This document shows, one piece after another, positions 1,692-24,816 of a stretch of 24,987 nucleotides of DNA. The stretch is from a virus: positions 1-24,987 of IMG/VR virus record IMGVR_UViG_3300044641_006763, one strand, 5' to 3'. Under the pieces are notes generated by a model. That model did not search any database. It saw only the letters and a program-made list of their open reading frames with translations, and was not told the origin of the DNA. The position numbers were made by a program, and so were the translations under genes. How positions within the stretch are numbered: position 1 is the stretch's first letter; every line of letters starts with the position of its first letter.

Positions 1692-2198
1692 ATGAAAATC
1701 GGATTTAACTGCAGCTCGTTTGATTTATTTCATGCTGGGCATGTCACTATGCTCAAAATGGAAAAGGAGATGTGTGATTACTTAAAAGTAGCACTTCAAG
1801 TTGATCCTACAATCGATCGACCTGGTATTAAGAATAAACCAACGCAATCTGTATATGAGCGATATGTTCAATTGCAAGCTTGTAAATATGTCGATGAAAT
1901 TCTTGTGTATGAAACAGAAGAAGATCTTCTCAACTTAATTCAAACGCAAACAATTCATGTCAGATTTTTGAGTGAAGAATATAAAGATAAAGACTTTACT
2001 GGAAAACAATATTGCATTGATAATGGCATAGAACTTTTTTTTCATTTAAGAAAACATAAATATTCTTCAACAGAAATCAGAAATAGAGTTTATCAGTTAG
2101 AAAAACTAAAAAGAACTGAAAGACTAGAAGAGAGTGTGCTTGAGCAGTACTCTCCAGAACTTCTGGAAAAATATTCGGTTAAAACTGATCAATTATGA
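1692..2198 (+). CDS. Cytidylyltransferase-like protein (TagD/RfaE-type nucleotidyltransferase)
   Basis: A 168-aa nucleotidyltransferase of the HxGH superfamily, which transfers CMP or AMP from CTP or ATP to a phosphorylated small molecule. The N-terminal strand plus FDLFHAGH (residues 10-17) holds the catalytic HxGH. YERYVQLQACKYVDEI (55-70) matches the TagD-like core, and SSTEIR (125-130) stands where the family has its ISSTxIR nucleotide-binding motif. A charged tail of about 30 residues follows. The family includes glycerol-3-phosphate cytidylyltransferase and the RfaE C-terminal domain; the real substrate is unknown. It is the first gene of the sugar cassette and overlaps the next by ATGA. 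A hexose-1-phosphate thymidylyltransferase (RmlA type) is not present, so this protein should not be read as its replacement without testing. Confidence 0.82.
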   Translation: MKIGFNCSSFDLFHAGHVTMLKMEKEMCDYLKVALQVDPTIDRPGIKNKPTQSVYERYVQLQACKYVDEILVYETEEDLLNLIQTQTIHVRFLSEEYKDKDFTGKQYCIDNGIELFFHLRKHKYSSTEIRNRVYQLEKLKRTERLEESVLEQYSPELLEKYSVKTDQL

Positions 2199-3127
2199 CA
2201 ATATTAGTTACTGGCGGCGCAGGATTTATTGGAAGCAATCTTTTACATCATTTAGTTAATGTTATAGATGATGAAATTATTTGTATTGACAATTTGACTT
2301 ACGCATCTGATTGGCACAATATTCCAGATTCAGTCAAACTTTATACGACAGATATTGTTGATGAGCATAACTGCGAATATATTTTTAAAAAATATAAACC
2401 AAAAACAATCTTTCATTTAGCAGCAGAAAGTCATGTAGATAATTCAATTAAAGATTGTTCTAAATTTATTCATACTAATATTATTGGAACCGTCAATTTA
2501 CTTAAACTTTCTTTAAAGTATGAAATTGATCGTTTCATGCATATTTCAACTGATGAAGTTTATGGAACCATAGATGAAGATTCGTTTACAGAAAAATCAA
2601 ACTATGATCCTCGCAATCCTTACTCCGCATCAAAAGCTTCAAGTGATCATTTTGTGAAAGCATTTCATAATACTTATGGATTGCCTGTGATTATTACCAA
2701 CTGTTCAAATAACTACGGACCTAGACAATATAAAGAGAAATTAATTCCACAGACAATTTTAAATTTGCTCGATGGTAAAAAAGTTCCCATCTATGGTGAT
2801 GGAAAGCAAATCCGCGATTGGTTGTATGTGCAAGATCATTGTGAAGCACTTTTTGAGGTATGGAGTCGTGGGAGAATTGGGCAGAAATATAATATTGGTG
2901 GAGAATGTGAAGTAAAAAATATTGATTTGGTTAGAATGATTCTTGATTATTTGAATATGAGTGAAAATATGATAGAATATGTTAAAGATCGTCCAGGACA
3001 TGATCGAAGGTACTCAACGAGTATTACTAAAATTCGACATGAAATTAAATGGAATCCACGTTTCAATCTTGAAGAAGGTTTAGAAAAGACTATTAAATGG
3101 TATGAATGCAATCGGAACAACTCTTAA
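2195..3127 (+). CDS. rfbB: dTDP-glucose 4,6-dehydratase-like SDR
   Basis: A 310-aa extended short-chain dehydrogenase. GGAGFIG (residues 7-13) binds NAD. HLAAESHVD (74-82), STDEVYG (118-124), YSASK (143-147) and NNYGPRQ (172-178) are the standard RmlB motifs, and Thr119, Asp120 and Glu121 form the TDE dehydratase triad beside Tyr143 and Lys147. The reaction would convert dTDP-glucose to dTDP-4-keto-6-deoxyglucose, the branch point for rhamnose and other deoxysugars. At 310 residues it is somewhat shorter than typical RmlB (about 340-360). It overlaps the upstream gene by 4 bases and the 3,5-epimerase gene by 26. CDP-glucose 4,6-dehydratase is a related alternative; the E1-like 3-dehydrase later in the cassette would need a CDP-linked product. 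Confidence 0.88.
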   Translation: MTILVTGGAGFIGSNLLHHLVNVIDDEIICIDNLTYASDWHNIPDSVKLYTTDIVDEHNCEYIFKKYKPKTIFHLAAESHVDNSIKDCSKFIHTNIIGTVNLLKLSLKYEIDRFMHISTDEVYGTIDEDSFTEKSNYDPRNPYSASKASSDHFVKAFHNTYGLPVIITNCSNNYGPRQYKEKLIPQTILNLLDGKKVPIYGDGKQIRDWLYVQDHCEALFEVWSRGRIGQKYNIGGECEVKNIDLVRMILDYLNMSENMIEYVKDRPGHDRRYSTSITKIRHEIKWNPRFNLEEGLEKTIKWYECNRNNS

Positions 3128-3641
3128 AGATGTTTACATCATCACAAACAAAAAGTTTGAAGATGATAGGGGGTTTTTCATTGAAGTTTTCAATGATAAA
3201 AAGTTTGAAGCAATTACTGGTGTAAAAAATTTTGTTCAAGACAATCATTCACAGTCTGTTAAAGGTGTTTTAAGGGGACTTCATTATCAAGTTGAAAATC
3301 CTCAGGGTAAATTGGTTCGTTGTACTTCAGGAATTGTTTTGGATGTAGTAGTAGATCTTCGAGTATATTCTCCTACTTTTGGAAAACATACTAAAATTTT
3401 ACTTGATTCTAATGATAAGCAAGTATGGGTTCCTGCTGGGTTTGCACATGGGTTTTATGTTATTTCTGATGAAGCTGAAGTGACATATAAAATTACTGAT
3501 TATTATTATCCTGAGCATGAGAGAACTCTTTTGTGGAATGACTCTGTTCTTGATATTGATTGGGGTGTGGTGGGAGATCCAATACTCTCTCCAAAAGATA
3601 AACTTGGAAAAACGTTTATTAATTGTGAAAAATATGAATGA
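3102..3641 (+). CDS. rfbC: dTDP-4-dehydrorhamnose 3,5-epimerase-like protein
   Basis: A 179-aa RmlC cupin. DDRGFFIEVF (21-30), the QDNHSQS segment (46-52), RGLHYQ (58-63, catalytic His61), WVPAGFAHGF (109-118) and TYKITDYYYP (128-137, with candidate catalytic Tyr129 and Tyr134) follow the family order, and LSPKDK (162-167) supplies the likely partner Asp166. The length is close to the normal 180-185. It acts on the product of the preceding dehydratase, inverting C3 and C5 to give the L-series 4-keto sugar. The start at 3102 lies inside the end of the upstream gene; no later in-frame Met precedes the conserved core. Confidence 0.92.
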   Translation: MNAIGTTLKDVYIITNKKFEDDRGFFIEVFNDKKFEAITGVKNFVQDNHSQSVKGVLRGLHYQVENPQGKLVRCTSGIVLDVVVDLRVYSPTFGKHTKILLDSNDKQVWVPAGFAHGFYVISDEAEVTYKITDYYYPEHERTLLWNDSVLDIDWGVVGDPILSPKDKLGKTFINCEKYE

Positions 3642-4455
3642 TCAGATTTCTGTTTATGGTGCTACTGGTTTTATTGGTGGCACCTTTTGTAATATGTTCC
3701 CCGATGAAGTTGTTAAAATTTCTAGAGAGCAAAGAAAACCAAAATCAAAAAATATTCTTTATTTGATAAGTACAATTTCAAATTATAATGTATTTGATGA
3801 CTTGCATTTGGATGTGAATACTAATCTAACAATTTTGTTAGATGTGCTTCAATATTGTAAAGATAATGATATTGTCTTTAATTATGTTAGTACTGGTTTT
3901 GTCTATGGATCGGACATCTTATACGCAAAGGAAGATGATCCATGTGATCCGAAAGGATTTTATTCGATTACAAAAAGAACGGCCGAACAACTTTTAATTT
4001 CATTTTGCAAAACTTTTGATGTAAATTATCGTATTTTAAGAATTGCAAATGTATATGGACATGATAAAACAATATCTTCTAAAAAGAATGTTTTGGGATT
4101 TTTAGTTAGTTTAATGAAAGAAAATAAACCAATTACTCTTTATGATGATGGTATGCAACTGAGAGATTATATGCATGTAACAGATGTCTGTAGAGCAATT
4201 AAAATGGTAATGGATGGGGGAGAGGTAAATCAAATTTACAATATTGCAAGTGGAACTGCCTTACCTTTTAGAAGAATTATAGAAATGGTGAAAGAAATTC
4301 TTAACAGTAAAAGTGAATTACTTTCAGTTAAAACGCCAAAATTTAATCAAATTGCACAGGCAAAAAACTTTGCTTTGAATGCTGATAAACTTAAATCTTT
4401 AGGATTTGAACCTCAGGTCTCTTTAGAAAGAGGCTTGCAATCTGTTTGTTTATGA
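3634..4455 (+). CDS. NAD(P)-dependent extended SDR (sugar epimerase/reductase)
   Basis: A 273-aa extended SDR. GATGFIGG (9-16) binds the cofactor, STGFVYG (86-92) supplies the catalytic Ser/Thr, YSITK (110-114) the Tyr-Lys pair, and RIANVYG the substrate loop. I chose ATG 3634, which overlaps the epimerase stop by 8 bases; a longer frame exists upstream but lies wholly inside the epimerase gene. In the position directly after RmlB-like and RmlC-like genes this would be a natural 4-ketoreductase (RmlD role) or a dTDP-sugar reductase of another stereochemistry. The sequence shows the fold and active site but not the substrate. Confidence 0.78.
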   Translation: MNDQISVYGATGFIGGTFCNMFPDEVVKISREQRKPKSKNILYLISTISNYNVFDDLHLDVNTNLTILLDVLQYCKDNDIVFNYVSTGFVYGSDILYAKEDDPCDPKGFYSITKRTAEQLLISFCKTFDVNYRILRIANVYGHDKTISSKKNVLGFLVSLMKENKPITLYDDGMQLRDYMHVTDVCRAIKMVMDGGEVNQIYNIASGTALPFRRIIEMVKEILNSKSELLSVKTPKFNQIAQAKNFALNADKLKSLGFEPQVSLERGLQSVCL

Positions 4456-4490
4456 TGTAAAATATATACTAGGAGTAAATTTAATTTTCT

Positions 4491-5552
4491 ATGAGTGAAT
4501 ATAAAAAAACAGCACTTGTTCTTGGTGCTGGTGGATTTATTGGAAGTCACATGGTAAAGAGATTACGTTCCGAAGGTTATTGGGTTCGTGGTGTAGATCT
4601 TAAGTATCCAGAGTTTTCTAAACACGAAGCAAACGAGTTTATTCTTGGGGATCTTCGTGATGTGGATTTTGTTCGTCGCGTCCTTGAGTATAAAGGACCT
4701 TATAATAATTTTTATAATTCTGTTCCATATCGTTATATTCAATCATTTGATGAGATCTATCAGTTTGCTGCTGATATGGGTGGTGCAGGATTTGTGTTTA
4801 CTGGTGAAAATGATGCAGATATTATGCACAACTCTGTAACCGTTAATCTAAACGTGCTTGAAATGCAACGTAAGATGAATGAGGATAGGGGGGCGAACGC
4901 TACTAAAATCTTCTACTCTGGATCGGCGTGTATGTATCCAGAGCACAATCAACTAGATCCAGATAATCCTGACTGCCGCGAAGAATCCGCATACCCAGCA
5001 AATCCAGACTCTGAGTATGGATGGGAGAAACTCTTCTCAGAACGTCTTTATTTCGCCTATAATCGCAATTACGACATTCCTGTTAGGATTGCTCGCTATC
5101 ATAATATTTTTGGACCTGAGGGAACGTGGGAAGGTGGGAGAGAGAAAGCACCTGCAGCAATCTGTCGTAAGGTGGCATACCTCCCAGAAGAAGGTGGAAC
5201 AATTGAAGTATGGGGTGATGGAAAACAAACTCGTTCCTTCCTATACATTGATGAATGCATTGAAGCAACCAGAAGATTGATGGAATCTGATTTCATTGGA
5301 CCTGTGAATATTGGTTCAGAAGAAATGGTAACTATTAATCAACTTGTAGATATTGCTGCTAAAGTTGCTGGTAAAGACGTGCAAAAAATGCACAAGTTGG
5401 ATGCACCTCTTGGAGTTCGTGGACGCAACTCTAACAATGATCTTATTAGGGGGAAACTTGGATGGGACTATTCACAATCTCTTGAGGAAGGAATCCGTAA
5501 AACTTATCGGTGGATTGAATCTCAAATTAAAGTATTTTATCATCCTGTTTGA
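4491..5552 (+). CDS. GDP-mannose 3,5-epimerase-like enzyme
   Basis: A 353-aa extended SDR closely resembling plant GDP-D-mannose 3',5'-epimerase. Matches include GAGGFIGSH (12-20), AADMGG (93-98), a YSGSACMYPE block (142-151) with the epimerase Cys147, YGWEK (176-180), the KAPAAICRK segment, WGDGKQTRSF, GPVNIGSEEMV and the family-specific GVRGRNSNN near the end. Cys147, Tyr176 and Lys180 correspond to the catalytic Cys, Tyr and Lys of the plant enzyme. An insertion near residues 68-84 (YNNFYNSVPYRY) is not in the plant form as I remember it. The product would be GDP-L-galactose or GDP-L-gulose. A 35-nt gap precedes the gene, with AGGAG about 15 nt before the ATG, an unusually long spacing. 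Confidence 0.88.
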   Translation: MSEYKKTALVLGAGGFIGSHMVKRLRSEGYWVRGVDLKYPEFSKHEANEFILGDLRDVDFVRRVLEYKGPYNNFYNSVPYRYIQSFDEIYQFAADMGGAGFVFTGENDADIMHNSVTVNLNVLEMQRKMNEDRGANATKIFYSGSACMYPEHNQLDPDNPDCREESAYPANPDSEYGWEKLFSERLYFAYNRNYDIPVRIARYHNIFGPEGTWEGGREKAPAAICRKVAYLPEEGGTIEVWGDGKQTRSFLYIDECIEATRRLMESDFIGPVNIGSEEMVTINQLVDIAAKVAGKDVQKMHKLDAPLGVRGRNSNNDLIRGKLGWDYSQSLEEGIRKTYRWIESQIKVFYHPV

Positions 5553-12791: not shown

Positions 12792-13591
12792 TTACTTTAA
12801 CTACAATTTTGTATGAAGGAAATTTTAGATTTCATCTAAAGGAGAATCTTTGGTTTCGCAATTTTAAGAGTAAGTATATTACTAAAAAAAGATTGTTAAT
12901 TAATAATCTAAATTCTACTCAAGAATTTGAAGATATTTTAAATGATCTTTACGATCCAAATGAAGTGGAATTAATCTATGTTAGTGATTATGCAGATAAA
13001 GTAATTGACATTTTTAATTTGAATATGAAAGAAGGAGATCTTGGATATAATTATACTGTTCCTTATTTTGTAAACATTCATACTTGCACCACACCATATT
13101 TCTTTAATGTCAGTTCAGATTGCTGTGTAGATATTTGCGTTAAGGATAGTTTTTTTGAAAAGTCAATTCGTCTTTTGGAAAAGGACAATGGATACATTGT
13201 TACAAGTTTACCTACAGAAAAAGATTGGAGCACTCATGGATATCCATCTTTTACTCAATGGGAATCTGAACAAATACATGGCAAAAGAATAACCTGTCAA
13301 GGAGAGTGGGAGCAAGTTAATATTCCTGGATTTAGTCCACAGCAAGATCTTGAAGATTTTTGGTGTAGTGCAACTTTTTGGGATGGTGTTTTTTTGGGAC
13401 ACGTTGAAAAATTAAAATCAATTAATTATTCCGAATGTTTCGGGATAAATCATATTCAGGCGGTTGCTCCATATGGCGGTAGAGGTGCTTTTGAAAATAG
13501 GATTGCAGATTATCTGATGTATAATAATGTTTATCGTGCAATGTTAAAAAGTAAAACTCAGTATGCTATGCATACAAATTCGGCACCTTGA
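12788..13591 (+). CDS. Unrecognised protein in the glycan cassette, possibly a glycosyltransferase
   Basis: A 267-aa soluble protein that I cannot place in a named family. It starts MITLTTILYEGNFRF, a beta strand followed by a loop as in many GT-A folds. In the middle are two cysteine- and aromatic-rich segments (NIHTCTTPYFFNVSSDCC, then VDICVKD), and the C-terminal half has WCSATFWDGVFLGH and APYGGRGAFENR. The general order resembles GT2-like proteins in which a central acidic pair binds metal, but no clear DxD is seen apart from isolated VDIC. It overlaps the DUF3431 gene by ATGA. A 47-nt gap, one of the few in the cassette, follows it. Confidence 0.55.
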   Translation: MITLTTILYEGNFRFHLKENLWFRNFKSKYITKKRLLINNLNSTQEFEDILNDLYDPNEVELIYVSDYADKVIDIFNLNMKEGDLGYNYTVPYFVNIHTCTTPYFFNVSSDCCVDICVKDSFFEKSIRLLEKDNGYIVTSLPTEKDWSTHGYPSFTQWESEQIHGKRITCQGEWEQVNIPGFSPQQDLEDFWCSATFWDGVFLGHVEKLKSINYSECFGINHIQAVAPYGGRGAFENRIADYLMYNNVYRAMLKSKTQYAMHTNSAP

Positions 13592-13616
13592 CTGAGATTA
13601 AAAAATGTGTTATGTT
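13588..13616 (+). promoter_or_regulatory. Candidate internal promoter before the E1-like gene
   Basis: TTGACT (13588-13593, five of six) overlaps the upstream stop codon. TATGTT (13611-13616, four of six) follows after 17 bp. It lies in a rare intergenic gap of the cassette and would restart transcription at the 3-dehydrase gene. Confidence 0.45.
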
Positions 13617-13638: not shown

Positions 13639-14937
13639 ATGTATCAATTAATTGAAAAATTTCTAGAGTCCTCCAAAGAAATAGAAGATAATATTTTTCC
13701 TTTTATTGCGAATAAAAAAAACTTCAATCCAGAAACAGATTCTGTTTATTACTCTGGACCGTATTGGGATGATGGGGAAATTATCGAAATTATTCATTCG
13801 GTTACAATGGGGAAGTGGCTTTCTTCTGGTGAAAAGGTTCATAAATTTGAGCGCGAATTCTCAAAGAAATTTAATTTTAAACATTCTGTAATGGTGAACT
13901 CTGGGAGTTCTGCTAACCTTGTAATGTTTGCTGCACTTAAAAAACACTTTGGTTGGAAAGACGGTGATGAAATTATTGTTTGTGCCTGTGGATTTGCCAC
14001 TACCATTGCCCCAATAGTTCAAAACGGACTTAAACCAGTTTTTGTGGATATTAATTGGGATGATCTTAATTGGGATTTGGAGCAGATTGAAAGGAAAATT
14101 ACAAGTCGAACAGTGGCAGCTATTTCTTCGCCTGTTCTTGGCAATCCATACGATATTGGAAAATTTGTAGATCTTTGCAGAAGAAAGAGTATTGCTGTTA
14201 TTGCGGATAATTGCGATAGTCTTGGTAGTAAGTGGAATGGAAATTATCTAACTGATTATGCAGTTGCTGCATCCTGTTCTTTTTATCCAGCACACCATCT
14301 CTGCACTATTGAGGGTGGTATGGTTTCCTCCAATGAAAAGGAAATTGTTGATCTTGCTCGCAGTTTTGCTTGGTGGGGGCGTGATTGTTATTGTGTGGGC
14401 GCACAGAATCTTTTGTCTTGTGGAACCTGTGGTAAACGTTTTGATCGTTGGTTGAAAGATTATGATGGAATAGTGGACCATAAGTATATCTTTTCTAATA
14501 TGGGATATAACCTCAAACCTCTAGATCTTCAAGGTGGGGTTGGATCTGTTCAACTGACAAAGTTTGAAGAAATTCACAAGTTCCGTAGAAAAAACAAAGA
14601 AGTAATTCAATCTATTCTTGAAAAGATTCCTGGTGTTCGAGTTGTAAATGAACTTCCTCAAGCAGAGACAAGTTGGTTTGGAGTTCCTACTGTTTGTGAA
14701 GATAAGAACCTTAAAGAGACATTAGTTTCTTACTTGGAAAAAAACAAAATTCAAACTCGCAATTATTTTGCAGGCAATATTCTTCTTCATCCAGGATACT
14801 CTCATCTTGACGATGCGTCAAAATATCCAAAGGCAAATCAAGTTTTGGATAAAGTATTTTTCTTGGGTTGTTCTCCAACAATTAGTGGACCGATGATCAA
14901 CTACATTGATCAAGTAGTTACTAACTTTATTAAGTAG
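13639..14937 (+). CDS. rfbH: CDP-4-keto-6-deoxyglucose 3-dehydrase-like enzyme (E1/RfbH family, DegT/DnrJ fold)
   Basis: A 432-aa PLP/PMP-fold protein of the DegT/DnrJ/EryC1 family. The internal aldimine lysine of aminotransferases is replaced by histidine in SFYPAHH (214-220), with His220 as in the Yersinia E1 and Salmonella RfbH dehydrases. Cys192, Cys250, Cys252 and Cys264 keep the order of the [2Fe-2S] ligands of E1 (C-X57-C-X1-C then C); the last spacing is 11 rather than 7. TCGKRF (263-268) and DHKYIFSNMGYNLK also match the RfbH pattern. The enzyme would remove the C3 hydroxyl of a CDP-4-keto-6-deoxy sugar, giving 3,6-dideoxy sugars such as paratose or tyvelose after reduction. An E3-type ferredoxin reductase is not in the window. 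GDP-linked ColD is a less likely alternative because it lacks these cysteines. Confidence 0.85.
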   Translation: MYQLIEKFLESSKEIEDNIFPFIANKKNFNPETDSVYYSGPYWDDGEIIEIIHSVTMGKWLSSGEKVHKFEREFSKKFNFKHSVMVNSGSSANLVMFAALKKHFGWKDGDEIIVCACGFATTIAPIVQNGLKPVFVDINWDDLNWDLEQIERKITSRTVAAISSPVLGNPYDIGKFVDLCRRKSIAVIADNCDSLGSKWNGNYLTDYAVAASCSFYPAHHLCTIEGGMVSSNEKEIVDLARSFAWWGRDCYCVGAQNLLSCGTCGKRFDRWLKDYDGIVDHKYIFSNMGYNLKPLDLQGGVGSVQLTKFEEIHKFRRKNKEVIQSILEKIPGVRVVNELPQAETSWFGVPTVCEDKNLKETLVSYLEKNKIQTRNYFAGNILLHPGYSHLDDASKYPKANQVLDKVFFLGCSPTISGPMINYIDQVVTNFIK

Positions 14938-18910: not shown

Positions 18911-19751
18911 TCAAATTGGGAATTTGGGAAGACTTGGAAACCAGATGTTTGAGTATGCTGCCGTTCGTGGAATTGCATCTAGACATGGATATGAATGGTG
19001 TATCCCACCTTTTAATAGAACAGGTATTGAAAATTACAGTCTACATAACTGTTTTAAGTTAGAATCTGTCGCAGAAGAGAACTTAAATTTTATTGAACAC
19101 TTTCAGTATGTTGGAGAAAGATTCTTTCATTTTGATGAGGATCTGTTTGAGCAGTGTCCTGATAATGTAAGTCTTCATGGATTTTTTCAATCTGAAAAAT
19201 ACTTTAGACATATTTTAGATGAGATTCGTAAGGACTTTACATTTCATGATGAGTATTTGCAACCTTGTAGAGAAATGATAGACTCTGTAGGGGGGGATCC
19301 AATCATGCTTCACGTTCGTAGAGGTGATCCTAATCTTACAGATCCTCGTGGTTTTAAGTGGAGCTATACACAATGTTCTGAAATGCATCCAGTTCAAACT
19401 ATTGAGTATTATGAAAAAGCACTTTCGGAATTTGATGACGATCAACCAGTCATTGTTTTTTCGGATTCTCCTGAATGGGTAAAAGAGCAAGAATTTTTTT
19501 CTGGAGATCGCTTCTTAATTTCGGAACCACAGGAAAAGTATGCTGATGGATCATATACTCCATATGCTGATCTATGCTTGATGTCTCTCTGTTCTCATGC
19601 TATTATTGCTAATAGTTCTATGAGTTGGTGGGGTGCTTGGTTAATTAATAACCCTATTAAAAAAGTAATCGCACCTAAAAATTGGTTTGGACCTGCTTAT
19701 GCAGACAAAGATACTAAAGATCTCTATGTTGAAAATTGGATTGTGCTATGA
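18897..19751 (+). CDS. GT11 alpha-1,2-fucosyltransferase-like protein
   Basis: A 284-aa GT11 protein with all motifs: GRLGNQMFEY (11-20), WCIPP (34-38), FFQSEKYF (96-103), the intact HVRRGD (139-144), and ANSSMSWWGAWL near residue 242. It is the most canonical of the four GT11-like proteins in this window. An insertion after HVRRGD (about residues 145-165, DPRGFKWSYTQCSEM) is absent in the relative at 16545. The donor is expected to be GDP-fucose; no GDP-mannose 4,6-dehydratase is visible in the window, so the host would have to supply it. It overlaps the previous gene by 14 bases and the NAD synthetase gene by ATGA. Confidence 0.9.
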   Translation: MLAFNQIGNLGRLGNQMFEYAAVRGIASRHGYEWCIPPFNRTGIENYSLHNCFKLESVAEENLNFIEHFQYVGERFFHFDEDLFEQCPDNVSLHGFFQSEKYFRHILDEIRKDFTFHDEYLQPCREMIDSVGGDPIMLHVRRGDPNLTDPRGFKWSYTQCSEMHPVQTIEYYEKALSEFDDDQPVIVFSDSPEWVKEQEFFSGDRFLISEPQEKYADGSYTPYADLCLMSLCSHAIIANSSMSWWGAWLINNPIKKVIAPKNWFGPAYADKDTKDLYVENWIVL

Positions 19752-20569
19752 ATCGTATTACTGATTACTCTGAATTAAAAACAAAAATTGTTAGTTGGAT
19801 CAAAGATTACGCTACTGTTAATAGTATTGATTCTCTTGTTGTAGGAATTTCTGGAGGAATTGATTCTTCCGTTGTTTCTACTCTCTGTGCTGAGACAGGA
19901 CTTCCTACGTATGTTCTTTCTATGCCTTTGAATTCAATCAGCTCTCAATCAAATTTGTCTGATGCTCATAGAAAGTTTCTCTCTAAAAATTATGAGAACG
20001 TTGTTCCTATGCGGATCGATCTCTCATCTGTTTATGAGCAGTTTGTAAAGAGCACTAAGTTTTGGTTGGGTGATGAATTTGCACAATCCAAACACTCTCT
20101 AGCTAATACAAAGTCACGTATCCGCATGGTAACATTGTATCAAGTTGCTGGTGATGTTGGCGGCATCGTTGTTGGTACTGGTAATAAAGTTGAAGATTAT
20201 GGCGTAGGATTTTATACTAAATATGGTGACGGGGGAGTTGATATTGCTCCTATTGCAGATCTTTATAAAACTGAAGTATGGGAACTTGGAAGGCATCTTG
20301 GTGTAGATCAACGTATTATTGATGCACAACCGACAGATGGACTATGGGAAGATGGAAGAACTGATGCAGATCAAATTGGAACATCTTACGAAATGCTTGA
20401 GTGGGTGATGGAATCTCAAATGTTTGAAAATGAAAAAGATTCAACATCTTTAAACATGTGGGAAGATAAAGAATTTACTGAAGAACAAAAGATCGCAATT
20501 CGACAATATCAAAAATTTAATACCCAAAATAAACATAAAATGTTGTCCATTCCTACGTTTAAACTATGA
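19748..20569 (+). CDS. nadE: NAD+ synthetase-like ATP pyrophosphatase
   Basis: A 273-aa N-type ATP pyrophosphatase. SGGIDS (35-40) is the P-loop; GTGNKVEDYGVGF (143-155) with TKYGDGGVDI (157-166) and PIADLYKTEVW (168-178) are the NadE signature for nicotinate adenine dinucleotide binding, and PTDGLW (195-200) with DADQIG (206-211) stands where NadE has the PTAxL and DE-LG motifs. No glutaminase (nitrilase) domain is fused, so it would use ammonia. It would adenylate NaAD and amidate it to NAD+. I chose ATG 19748, in ATGA overlap with the GT11 gene. It stands next to a NAD-dependent dehydrogenase. A role in amidating a sugar acid is possible but the NadE motifs favour NAD synthesis. Confidence 0.88.
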   Translation: MNRITDYSELKTKIVSWIKDYATVNSIDSLVVGISGGIDSSVVSTLCAETGLPTYVLSMPLNSISSQSNLSDAHRKFLSKNYENVVPMRIDLSSVYEQFVKSTKFWLGDEFAQSKHSLANTKSRIRMVTLYQVAGDVGGIVVGTGNKVEDYGVGFYTKYGDGGVDIAPIADLYKTEVWELGRHLGVDQRIIDAQPTDGLWEDGRTDADQIGTSYEMLEWVMESQMFENEKDSTSLNMWEDKEFTEEQKIAIRQYQKFNTQNKHKMLSIPTFKL

Positions 20570-22479: not shown

Positions 22480-23628
22480 ATGGAAAAACCATTGTTAGAC
22501 TTAGGTTTTCAACCTTTAGTAAATAATTTATTTTCAACAAAAGAGCAGTCTTTGAATGCTAAAAAGTATTCTATGTCTGCAACAATTGATGGTAATATGA
22601 CTGTTAAATTAGATACGGCAATTCCATCTGAAGAACTTTACAAAACGTATTTGTATCATTCTGCTGTTAATAAACCATATATTTACCATTGCCAGCGAAT
22701 GTGGCATAGTATCAAACATCTGAAACATGATGTTATTATAGACGTTGGTGGTAATGATGGATCATTATTGAAATCTTTTCGGTCTCAAACAAAAGATCCT
22801 TTGACCCTGATTAATGTTGATGCTTCTTCTTCTTTTCGAGAAGAAAATATTGAATCTGGAATTGATTATGTTAATGATTACTTTAATGAAGATTTAGATT
22901 TGCCAACGGCAGATATTATTACTTCGACAAATGTTTTTCAACACACTTCTGATGTTGAAAAATTTCTTTCTGCAATTAAAAAGCATTTGGGTGGAGTTTG
23001 GATTCTTGAATTTCCATATACTCTCAGAACATTTGAAACTTTACAATTTGATCAATTTTATCATGAGCATTATTATTATTGGTTAGTTACTCCATTAGTA
23101 AAACTATTTGATAAATACGATCTTCGCATTATTAATATTGAAGAACAAGAAATTCATGGAGGAACACTTCGTTTGTGGATTGCAAAAAAATCAGACTCAA
23201 ATCCCACTGGGGTAGAAAAAGAATTTCTTAAAAAAGAAAAAGAATTTGATTTTTTTGCATCTTCCAAAAAAATGTATGAAAAGATTGAAAGGGATAGAAA
23301 TTGGATATTAAATTTAGAGGGAAAAACTGCTTTTTTTGGCGCAGCAGCAAAGGGTTGTGTATATTTAAATGCATTAAATATTGATTCAAATATCCTTATT
23401 GATTCATATATTATTGATGACACTAAAAATAAACAGGGAATGTTTATGCCCGGAACTGGATTTGAAATTTTAAATAGAGAAATATTATATAAACATCAAC
23501 CAGATAATCTTATTATTCTTGCACATAATTTTAAAGATTATATTATTAAATCTTTGCGACCATATTATAAAGGAAAAATTATAACCATGCTCCCAACATT
23601 ACAAATTGATATGGGGGAAAATTATTAA
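22480..23628 (+). CDS. Sugar C-methyltransferase (NovU/TylC3-like) lacking its N-terminal zinc cysteines
   Basis: A 382-aa SAM-dependent methyltransferase. IIDVGGNDGSLL (86-97) is motif I, FQHTSDVEKFL (153-163) the strand-4 helix, FYHEHYYYW (193-201) the catalytic HEHxxY of C-3 and C-5 methyltransferases acting on dTDP-4-keto sugars, IHGGTLR (225-231) follows, and FGAAAKG (286-292) opens the C-terminal Methyltransf_14 domain. Family members normally start with a zinc-binding Methyltransf_13 segment (CxxC then LDLGxQPLxN); here the protein begins at MEKPLLDLGFQPLVNN, so the first cysteine pair is missing while the GxQP part remains. It is the last gene of the cassette. Confidence 0.85.
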   Translation: MEKPLLDLGFQPLVNNLFSTKEQSLNAKKYSMSATIDGNMTVKLDTAIPSEELYKTYLYHSAVNKPYIYHCQRMWHSIKHLKHDVIIDVGGNDGSLLKSFRSQTKDPLTLINVDASSSFREENIESGIDYVNDYFNEDLDLPTADIITSTNVFQHTSDVEKFLSAIKKHLGGVWILEFPYTLRTFETLQFDQFYHEHYYYWLVTPLVKLFDKYDLRIINIEEQEIHGGTLRLWIAKKSDSNPTGVEKEFLKKEKEFDFFASSKKMYEKIERDRNWILNLEGKTAFFGAAAKGCVYLNALNIDSNILIDSYIIDDTKNKQGMFMPGTGFEILNREILYKHQPDNLIILAHNFKDYIIKSLRPYYKGKIITMLPTLQIDMGENY

Positions 23629-23734: not shown

Positions 23735-23929
23735 ATGACTGTAACAACTAATGAATATGGGCAACAAAATATGTTTGCCAAAGAACCCGTAATGTATTAT
23801 GAGAATTACGGAATGCTGACTCCCAATCAAGTTAAGGAGCGTACTAATGGACGCTGGGCAATGGTCGGTTTTGTTGCTGGTGTTATTTCTTATTCTATCA
23901 CTGGCAACTTCTTCTTCGGGATCTTCTGA
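23735..23929 (+). CDS. hli: High-light-inducible protein (Hli/HLIP)
   Basis: A 64-aa HLIP, a one-helix relative of chlorophyll a/b-binding proteins. After a polar head of 34 residues, ERTNGRWAMVGF (35-46) holds the Chl-binding Glu35 with Asn38 and Arg40, and the single membrane helix continues to about residue 56, ending ITGNFFFGIF, as is typical of cyanophage HLIPs. It acts in the thylakoid membrane, binding chlorophyll and carotenoid and protecting photosystem II during infection. It has its own promoter. Its stop overlaps the next frame by one base (TGATG). Confidence 0.95.
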   Translation: MTVTTNEYGQQNMFAKEPVMYYENYGMLTPNQVKERTNGRWAMVGFVAGVISYSITGNFFFGIF

Positions 23930-24015
23930 TGACTGAAATCATCTTCACAATTACAGGAGTTGCATTTTTGGTTCTCCTGAGTTATGCTGTAGAGAAGGTC
24001 TGCGAAACTTACTGA
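23929..24015 (+). CDS. Putative 28-aa single-pass membrane peptide in the hli operon
   Basis: ATG 23929 overlaps the hli stop (TGATG), and the frame closes at TGA 24013-24015, which itself overlaps the next start. After MTEIIFT comes a hydrophobic helix (about residues 4-21, including ITGVAFLVLLSYAV) and a short tail VEKVCETY. The double overlap with two real genes supports translation. It is the size of small photosystem or cytochrome b6f subunits, but I do not recognise it as PsbN, PetG, PetL or PetN. Function is unknown; a thylakoid location is inferred from its neighbours. Confidence 0.55.
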   Translation: MTEIIFTITGVAFLVLLSYAVEKVCETY

Positions 24016-24287
24016 TGAGTGCTGGAATGCTTGGACAATTTGCGATTGCTCTTGAGAAACTTGGATGGGACGCCGATGATGAACTAGAAGTCAATATTGG
24101 TGGTGTGGCAGTTACGGGAACTGCCACTAACCCTAACGCTAATCCAAAATGGGCAAAACCATACGGAACTGTAACTTACCAGAATGATGCATTTATTGTT
24201 ATCAAAAATAAAACCAGAAATCCTGTGGTTTCATGCCAATCTAATCCTGAACTTAAACAACATCACTCTTATCAAGGAGAAAACTAA
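24015..24287 (+). CDS. Hypothetical cyanophage protein between two hli genes (90 aa)
   Basis: A 90-aa soluble protein starting MSAGMLGQFAIALEKLGWDAD. A short amphipathic helix is followed by LEVNIGGVAVTGTATNPNANPKW and GTVTYQNDAFIVIKNKTRNPV, both of which look like beta strands with polar turns, a small beta-rich domain. No membrane helix or cofactor motif is seen. It starts in TGATG with the 28-aa frame and ends in TAATG with the second hli gene. The tight link with hli and psbA suggests a part in protecting or altering photosynthesis during infection. Confidence 0.68.
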   Translation: MSAGMLGQFAIALEKLGWDADDELEVNIGGVAVTGTATNPNANPKWAKPYGTVTYQNDAFIVIKNKTRNPVVSCQSNPELKQHHSYQGEN

Positions 24288-24682: not shown

Positions 24683-24816
24683 ACAACAAGTTAAGGAATG
24701 TAACAAAACCTTAACGTTGTCCTCTGCCTAACCGAGACCTATGGGGAGGTTAAACACAGTCTCTCATACCCACGATGGAGGGTGTCGTGGGGAATACTTG
24801 TACCGTTCAGTTCCCC
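24683..24816 (+). ncRNA. Structured psbA leader RNA, PhotoRC-type candidate
   Basis: The leader of about 165 nt folds into clear helices. ACAAC..GTTAAGG pairs with CCTTAAC..GTTGT (683-696 with 709-720 of the 24-kb block, two bulged A). GAGAC pairs with GTCTC (24734-24738 with 24759-24763). CCCACGA pairs with TCGTGGG (24769-24775 with 24785-24791). GGGGAA (24789-24794) can pair with TTCCCC (24811-24816), which competes with the helix before it. PhotoRC RNAs are known upstream of psbA in cyanobacteria and cyanophages; membership here is inferred from position. Confidence 0.55.

Follow-up and report, generated by a model that had tools for sequence, protein, structure and literature searches.

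Known 3-dehydrases and the cyanophage window

The closest described relatives of the enzyme considered here are the CDP-6-deoxy-L-threo-D-glycero-4-hexulose-3-dehydrases E1, AscC, and RfbH, with which it shares the fold, a histidine in place of lysine, and the order of the four cysteine ligands. SpnQ of the spinosyn pathway is, by its published description, likewise an Fe-S 3-dehydrase that acts on a dTDP sugar and accepts electrons from ferredoxin/FNR in place of the E3 reductase (PMC8987622), although its substrate is a 2,6-dideoxy sugar destined for an antibiotic. ColD resembles these enzymes in its fold, its catalytic histidine, and its deoxygenation at C3, but it has neither an Fe-S cluster nor a CxC...C motif, and its cycle is hydrolytic and glutamate-driven. 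In the yersiniose and erwiniose pathways, 3,6-dideoxy-4-keto-glucose, as made by E1/E3, receives a carbon branch from YerE or ErwE, the latter with a preference for hydroxylated 2-oxo acids, for example 4-hydroxy-2-oxobutanoate (PMC12247030). Genes of the rfbH/ascC type have already been listed among viral metabolic genes (PMC10653327), and the enzyme is therefore partly known; what is new here is a separate, probably dTDP-linked clade that lacks E3. It has been called not known whether the LPS-like clusters of cyanophages are functional or "stuffer DNA" (PMC3037559).

The stretch of DNA analysed here (the window) is a complete linear IMG/VR fragment of 24,987 nt from a T4-like marine cyanophage, whose nearest isolates are Synechococcus phages. 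One long plus-strand sugar/glycan cassette runs from a wcaG RNA to an Hli gene, and the right end holds this Hli gene, a PhotoRC-II RNA (24712-24805), and, behind it, the start of psbA. The features used below are as follows.

1534-1631, + strand: wcaG RNA, a cis-regulatory candidate (RF01761, 94 bits; PMC2864571), just ahead of the sugar block
1692-2198, + strand: cytidylyltransferase-like gene (PF01467), first of the sugar block, of neither RfbF nor RmlA type
2195-3127, + strand: dTDP-glucose 4,6-dehydratase of RmlB type (TIGR01181, 418.7 bits, cut-off 365), the likely substrate maker
3102-3641, + strand: RmlC/AscE-like 3,5- or 5-epimerase (phrog_8784, 4e-63)
3634-4455, + strand: extended SDR, probable 4-ketoreductase partner, whose homologues adjoin E1 elsewhere
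13588-13616, + strand: possible promoter of the E1 gene's own (TTGACT-17-TATGTT, a consensus match only), in the 47-nt upstream gap
13639-14937, + strand: predicted E1-type [2Fe-2S]/PMP sugar 3-dehydrase (His219; candidate ligands C192, C250, C252, and C264)
23735-24287, + strand: Hli gene (23735-23929), 85 nt, and a phrog_475 protein gene (24015-24287); relatives carry a ferredoxin gene between the two

An E1-type enzyme with a conserved cysteine motif

The ORF occupies exactly positions 13639-14937 on the plus strand, starts with ATG, and encodes 432 amino acids that match DegT_DnrJ_EryC1 in Pfam. Its top NCBIfam model is RfbH (2e-107), but with 359.6 bits it misses the cut-off of 423 of the RfbH equivalog NF011936, so that it belongs to the E1 type without being filed as RfbH sensu stricto. 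The nearest PDB sequences are those of Yersinia E1 (3bcx) and its H220K mutant (3bb8), both with E=1e-63. The AlphaFold model (pLDDT 90.6) adopts the DegT/aspartate-aminotransferase fold of the E1/RfbH 3-dehydrases; its top three Foldseek matches are E1 structures (TM 0.85-0.86), followed by ColD, and its weakest region is the Fe-S loop (pLDDT 56-68 around residues 251-280). Judged by these sequence and fold searches, the ORF encodes a sugar 3-dehydrase of the E1/AscC/RfbH type, for which the cluster and the reaction are predicted, and the earlier note's proposal that the phage encodes an E1-family 3-dehydrase of the histidine and Fe-S type is upheld.

In the alignment to Yersinia E1, the four cysteines of the ORF fall on the E1 cluster ligands: Cys192 aligns with the second cysteine of DCCD, and Cys250, Cys252, and Cys264 with the three cysteines of RDCYC...TC. 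The positions that had been read from the phage sequence, their E1 order, and the X11 spacing compared to X7 in E1 are all correct. The replacement of the PLP lysine had been placed one residue too far, at His220; the residue is His219, which His220 adjoins. Both the H220K site of 3bb8 and the H188 site of ColD (N or K in 3b8x and 2r0t) align with this first histidine of "AHH".

The four cysteines and the histidine pair are invariant in 86/86 phage E1-like proteins, which comprise the best 80 of the 522 loci found in a scan of viral contigs plus isolates; one of the six scan seeds spanned the CxC, and members with a variant GRGCYC were still recovered. The cysteines and His219 are also invariant in a 36-sequence alignment with identities down to 34%, most of which came from a genome scan with seeds outside the cysteine region. 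Such invariance in both sets puts the motif far beyond chance. Another cysteine, Cys261, varies among the 86 phage members (it is N in the S-B43 group), which backs the choice of four ligands made in the earlier note.

The same residues bear on whether an electron donor is needed at all. A ColD-like hydrolytic 3-dehydratase or a glutamate-dependent aminotransferase, in which the cysteines would be leftovers, could have the same fold, given that ColD is the next-best structural match, and SpnQ without its reductase can transaminate (PMC8987622). However, the ColD-type relatives keep Cys192 and have lost the CxC...C that is invariant in the phage enzyme's clade and present in the ORF, and the lysine is replaced by histidine in all members, which makes either activity very improbable. 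It could also be argued that the gene is a functionless passenger or "stuffer" DNA, as suggested for cyanophage LPS clusters (PMC3037559), since sugar genes vary greatly among cyanophages. Against this, the E1-like gene has a dN/dS of 0.03-0.04 relative to close relatives and is under strong purifying selection, the catalytic residues are intact in 86 phage copies, and the partner genes are conserved, so that a gene without function is scarcely credible here.

The X11 clade

The longer loop is real, as the earlier note had it, but it is not a novelty of phages; it is a clade feature that bacterial members have as well. The X11 proteins form one clade with support 100/100, sister to the classical X7-loop RfbH, to which the phage protein is about 33% identical. 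The clade spans hundreds of marine virus loci, Prochlorococcus, and a few bacteria. Its bacterial members (L088-L096) come from Nitrosomonadaceae, an actinobacterium, two Prochlorococcus single cells, Bacteriovoracaceae, Polyangiaceae, Nitrospirota, and others, and their genes lie mostly on contigs with ordinary bacterial genes. Among 61 sampled genomes of the host family, only the centre genome of the sample carries an X11 gene. The X11 clade is thus a large, previously unseparated branch of the E1 family that is common in cyanophages.

Gene neighbours and the nucleotide sugar

In contrast to the classical enzymes, the X11 proteins have neighbours of the dTDP type, with no CDP genes and no E3. 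RfbF or RfbG was found near X11 genes at 0/95 loci, where RmlB occurs in 36, RmlA in 4, and the partner SDR in 67 (directly adjacent in 41). At 31 classical X7-10 loci, by comparison, RfbF occurs in 22, RfbG in 18, and an adjacent partner SDR in none; the references for this neighbour search were taken from both groups themselves, which favours the contrast. The pair of RfbF and RfbG that marks a CDP-3,6-dideoxyhexose pathway is likewise absent near the ORF. The curated models agree with this division: the dTDP equivalog cut-off is passed by the 4,6-dehydratases of the window, L043, L081, L092, and L094, the RmlA proteins of L020, L084, L092, and L094 score above the curated cut-off, and the classical loci pass the curated CDP models. 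On the RmlB-type protein of the window, the CDP model TIGR02622 scores only 103.

Because CDP-glucose genes are absent from the 95 X11 loci and dTDP-type RmlB and RmlA lie nearby, dTDP-4-keto-6-deoxyglucose appears to be a likelier substrate than the CDP form that the earlier note had named, which is probably wrong. RmlA occurs in 44/61 host-family genomes, and most hosts should therefore be able to provide dTDP-glucose. The same enzyme might still use CDP-4-keto-6-deoxyglucose supplied by the host, as for classical AscC/RfbH. This has the precedent of the family, and CDP-glucose 4,6-dehydratase occurs in 22/61 host-family genomes and in 2/9 bacterial X11 genomes (in one of them about 20 kb off on the same contig), which makes a host CDP substrate possible. 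Nevertheless, the neighbourhoods without RfbF/RfbG and with dTDP genes close by, together with two Prochlorococcus genomes that carry an X11 gene and no RfbF/RfbG scoring above cut-off, render CDP supply from the host unlikely.

Homologues of the 3634-4455 SDR stand directly beside E1 at 34 phage loci and at L088 and L090-L094, and this partner has only general SDR matches in the PDB. The SDR and the epimerase are also present in phage blocks without E1. An ascarylose-like five-gene pathway (CTP transferase, RmlB, RmlC, SDR, and E1) is suggestive in L026 and was set aside, most of its block being found E1-free as well. A block of CTP-transferase, RmlC, SDR, and GDP-mannose-epimerase-like genes (1692-5552 in the window; L191-L217) recurs in phages without RmlB and E1, which indicates an independent role for it. 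The methyltransferase at 22480-23628 contains a PF08484 C-methyltransferase C-terminal domain, of a family known for C-methylating dTDP-4-keto sugars, and further points to dTDP-sugar chemistry within this cassette. Upstream of the E1 gene, the TTGAC and TATnnT positions of the possible promoter are kept in the four nearest relatives and not in L013; promoter-like sites in the region number 27 against 21.5 expected.

Independent support for 3-deoxygenation chemistry comes from carboligases that use the E1/E3 product. A YerE/ErwE/JanthE-like ThDP enzyme (best PDB match JanthE 8rph, 2e-108) occurs at 24 X11 loci, at 22 of them directly downstream of E1, which recalls the yersiniose and erwiniose pathways. 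The phage loci differ from these in that they often add a gene for a PanB-type ketopantoate hydroxymethyltransferase next after the ThDP enzyme, as in L028 (11287-13840) and about 20 more viral loci, and in that the nucleotide is probably dTDP. The PanB-type enzyme could supply a hydroxylated 2-oxo acid donor, and such loci possibly encode a phage route to 3,6-dideoxy sugars whose side branch is hydroxylated. Carboligase and PanB-type genes are absent from the window. For the gene upstream in YerE-type loci (L028 9120-9971), searches of Pfam, NCBIfam, and the PDB gave no match.

Electron donor

The earlier note had reported no E3-like gene in the window. None was found, but this says little alone, as the window is the whole 25-kb fragment record. 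More widely, E3-type reductases (PF00175) were found in 0/52 phage records, including the complete S-B43 and RN05-S genomes, by a search that was positive in 10/14 control genomes, and no E3 with Fer2, FAD, and NAD domains was found encoded with E1. An E3-type motif was not found within 8 kb of classical RfbH loci either, and a missing E3 in a single window is therefore not unusual. Since the X11 branch has no reductase of its own, electrons must be borrowed, most plausibly from ferredoxin, which is our best guess for the donor and for which SpnQ provides the precedent.

Plant-type ferredoxins of about 100 aa are encoded in 16/53 phage records and by 5/5 isolates carrying the X11 gene, and in two contigs the ferredoxin gene lies 1.2 kb from E1. 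Host photosynthetic ferredoxin, which the earlier note had put forward, is reasonable as to ferredoxin, but with all five E1-carrying isolates encoding one, it need not be the host's. In the window, no ferredoxin gene lies between Hli and the phrog_475 gene (23929-24015), where L013, L017, L045, L063, and L168 have it; with a gap of 85 nt, the window phage lacks one there and may carry one outside the fragment. A higher frequency with E1 (13/46 E1-bearing IMG/VR records compared to 0/17 SDR-block records) is not claimed as enrichment, the contigs differing in length and relatedness and one SDR-block record (G050) also having E1. Ferredoxin is common in phages anyway, being found in 44/153 cyanophages (PMC10452541).

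Light coupling of the deoxysugar step is a plausible conjecture. FNR can reduce ferredoxin in the dark too. On a tentative and rather doubtful extension, the X11 clade would be a distinct dTDP-specific, ferredoxin-driven family, and the 3,6-dideoxy or YerE-branched surface sugar of cyanophages would depend on light through host or phage photosynthetic ferredoxin.

Proposed route

We put the probability at about 70% that an E1-type PMP/[2Fe-2S] 3-dehydrase acts on a dTDP sugar, is fed by ferredoxin, and leads to a 3,6-dideoxyhexose on a glycan. This route builds on the observed enzyme family, motif, conservation, gene neighbourhoods, and absence of E3. Host dTDP-glucose would be converted to dTDP-4-keto-6-deoxyglucose by the phage RmlB-like enzyme (2195-3127). 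The E1-like enzyme would form a Schiff base between PMP and this substrate, His219 would take the C4' proton, and the 3-OH would leave. Electrons passing singly through the putative four-cysteine cluster, two in all, would then reduce the intermediate to the 3,6-dideoxy-4-keto sugar. With no dedicated E3, they would come from a soluble plant-type ferredoxin, probably of the host in the window phage, judging by the fragment, and of the phage in many relatives. The 3,6-dideoxyhexose may be finished by the SDR (3634-4455), perhaps together with the RmlC-like epimerase, and glycosyltransferases of the cassette would attach it to a surface glycan. The cluster, reaction, dTDP substrate, ferredoxin donor, and glycan target are the predicted parts.

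With such a route, part of the LPS-like gene clusters of cyanophages would have a chemical function open to testing, and cyanophage ferredoxin would have a proposed client enzyme beyond photosynthesis and bilin synthesis. Within the E1/RfbH family, a dTDP-linked branch would also stand apart from a CDP-linked one.

Two minor observations were made alongside. A gene for NAD synthetase (19736-20569) lies within the glycan cassette, and its homologues occur in 16/86 E1 loci. An archaeal relative (L118, 7935-9314) has an enlarged and rearranged cysteine loop (CIMPACNPLHCGDRGC), possibly holding a different cluster.
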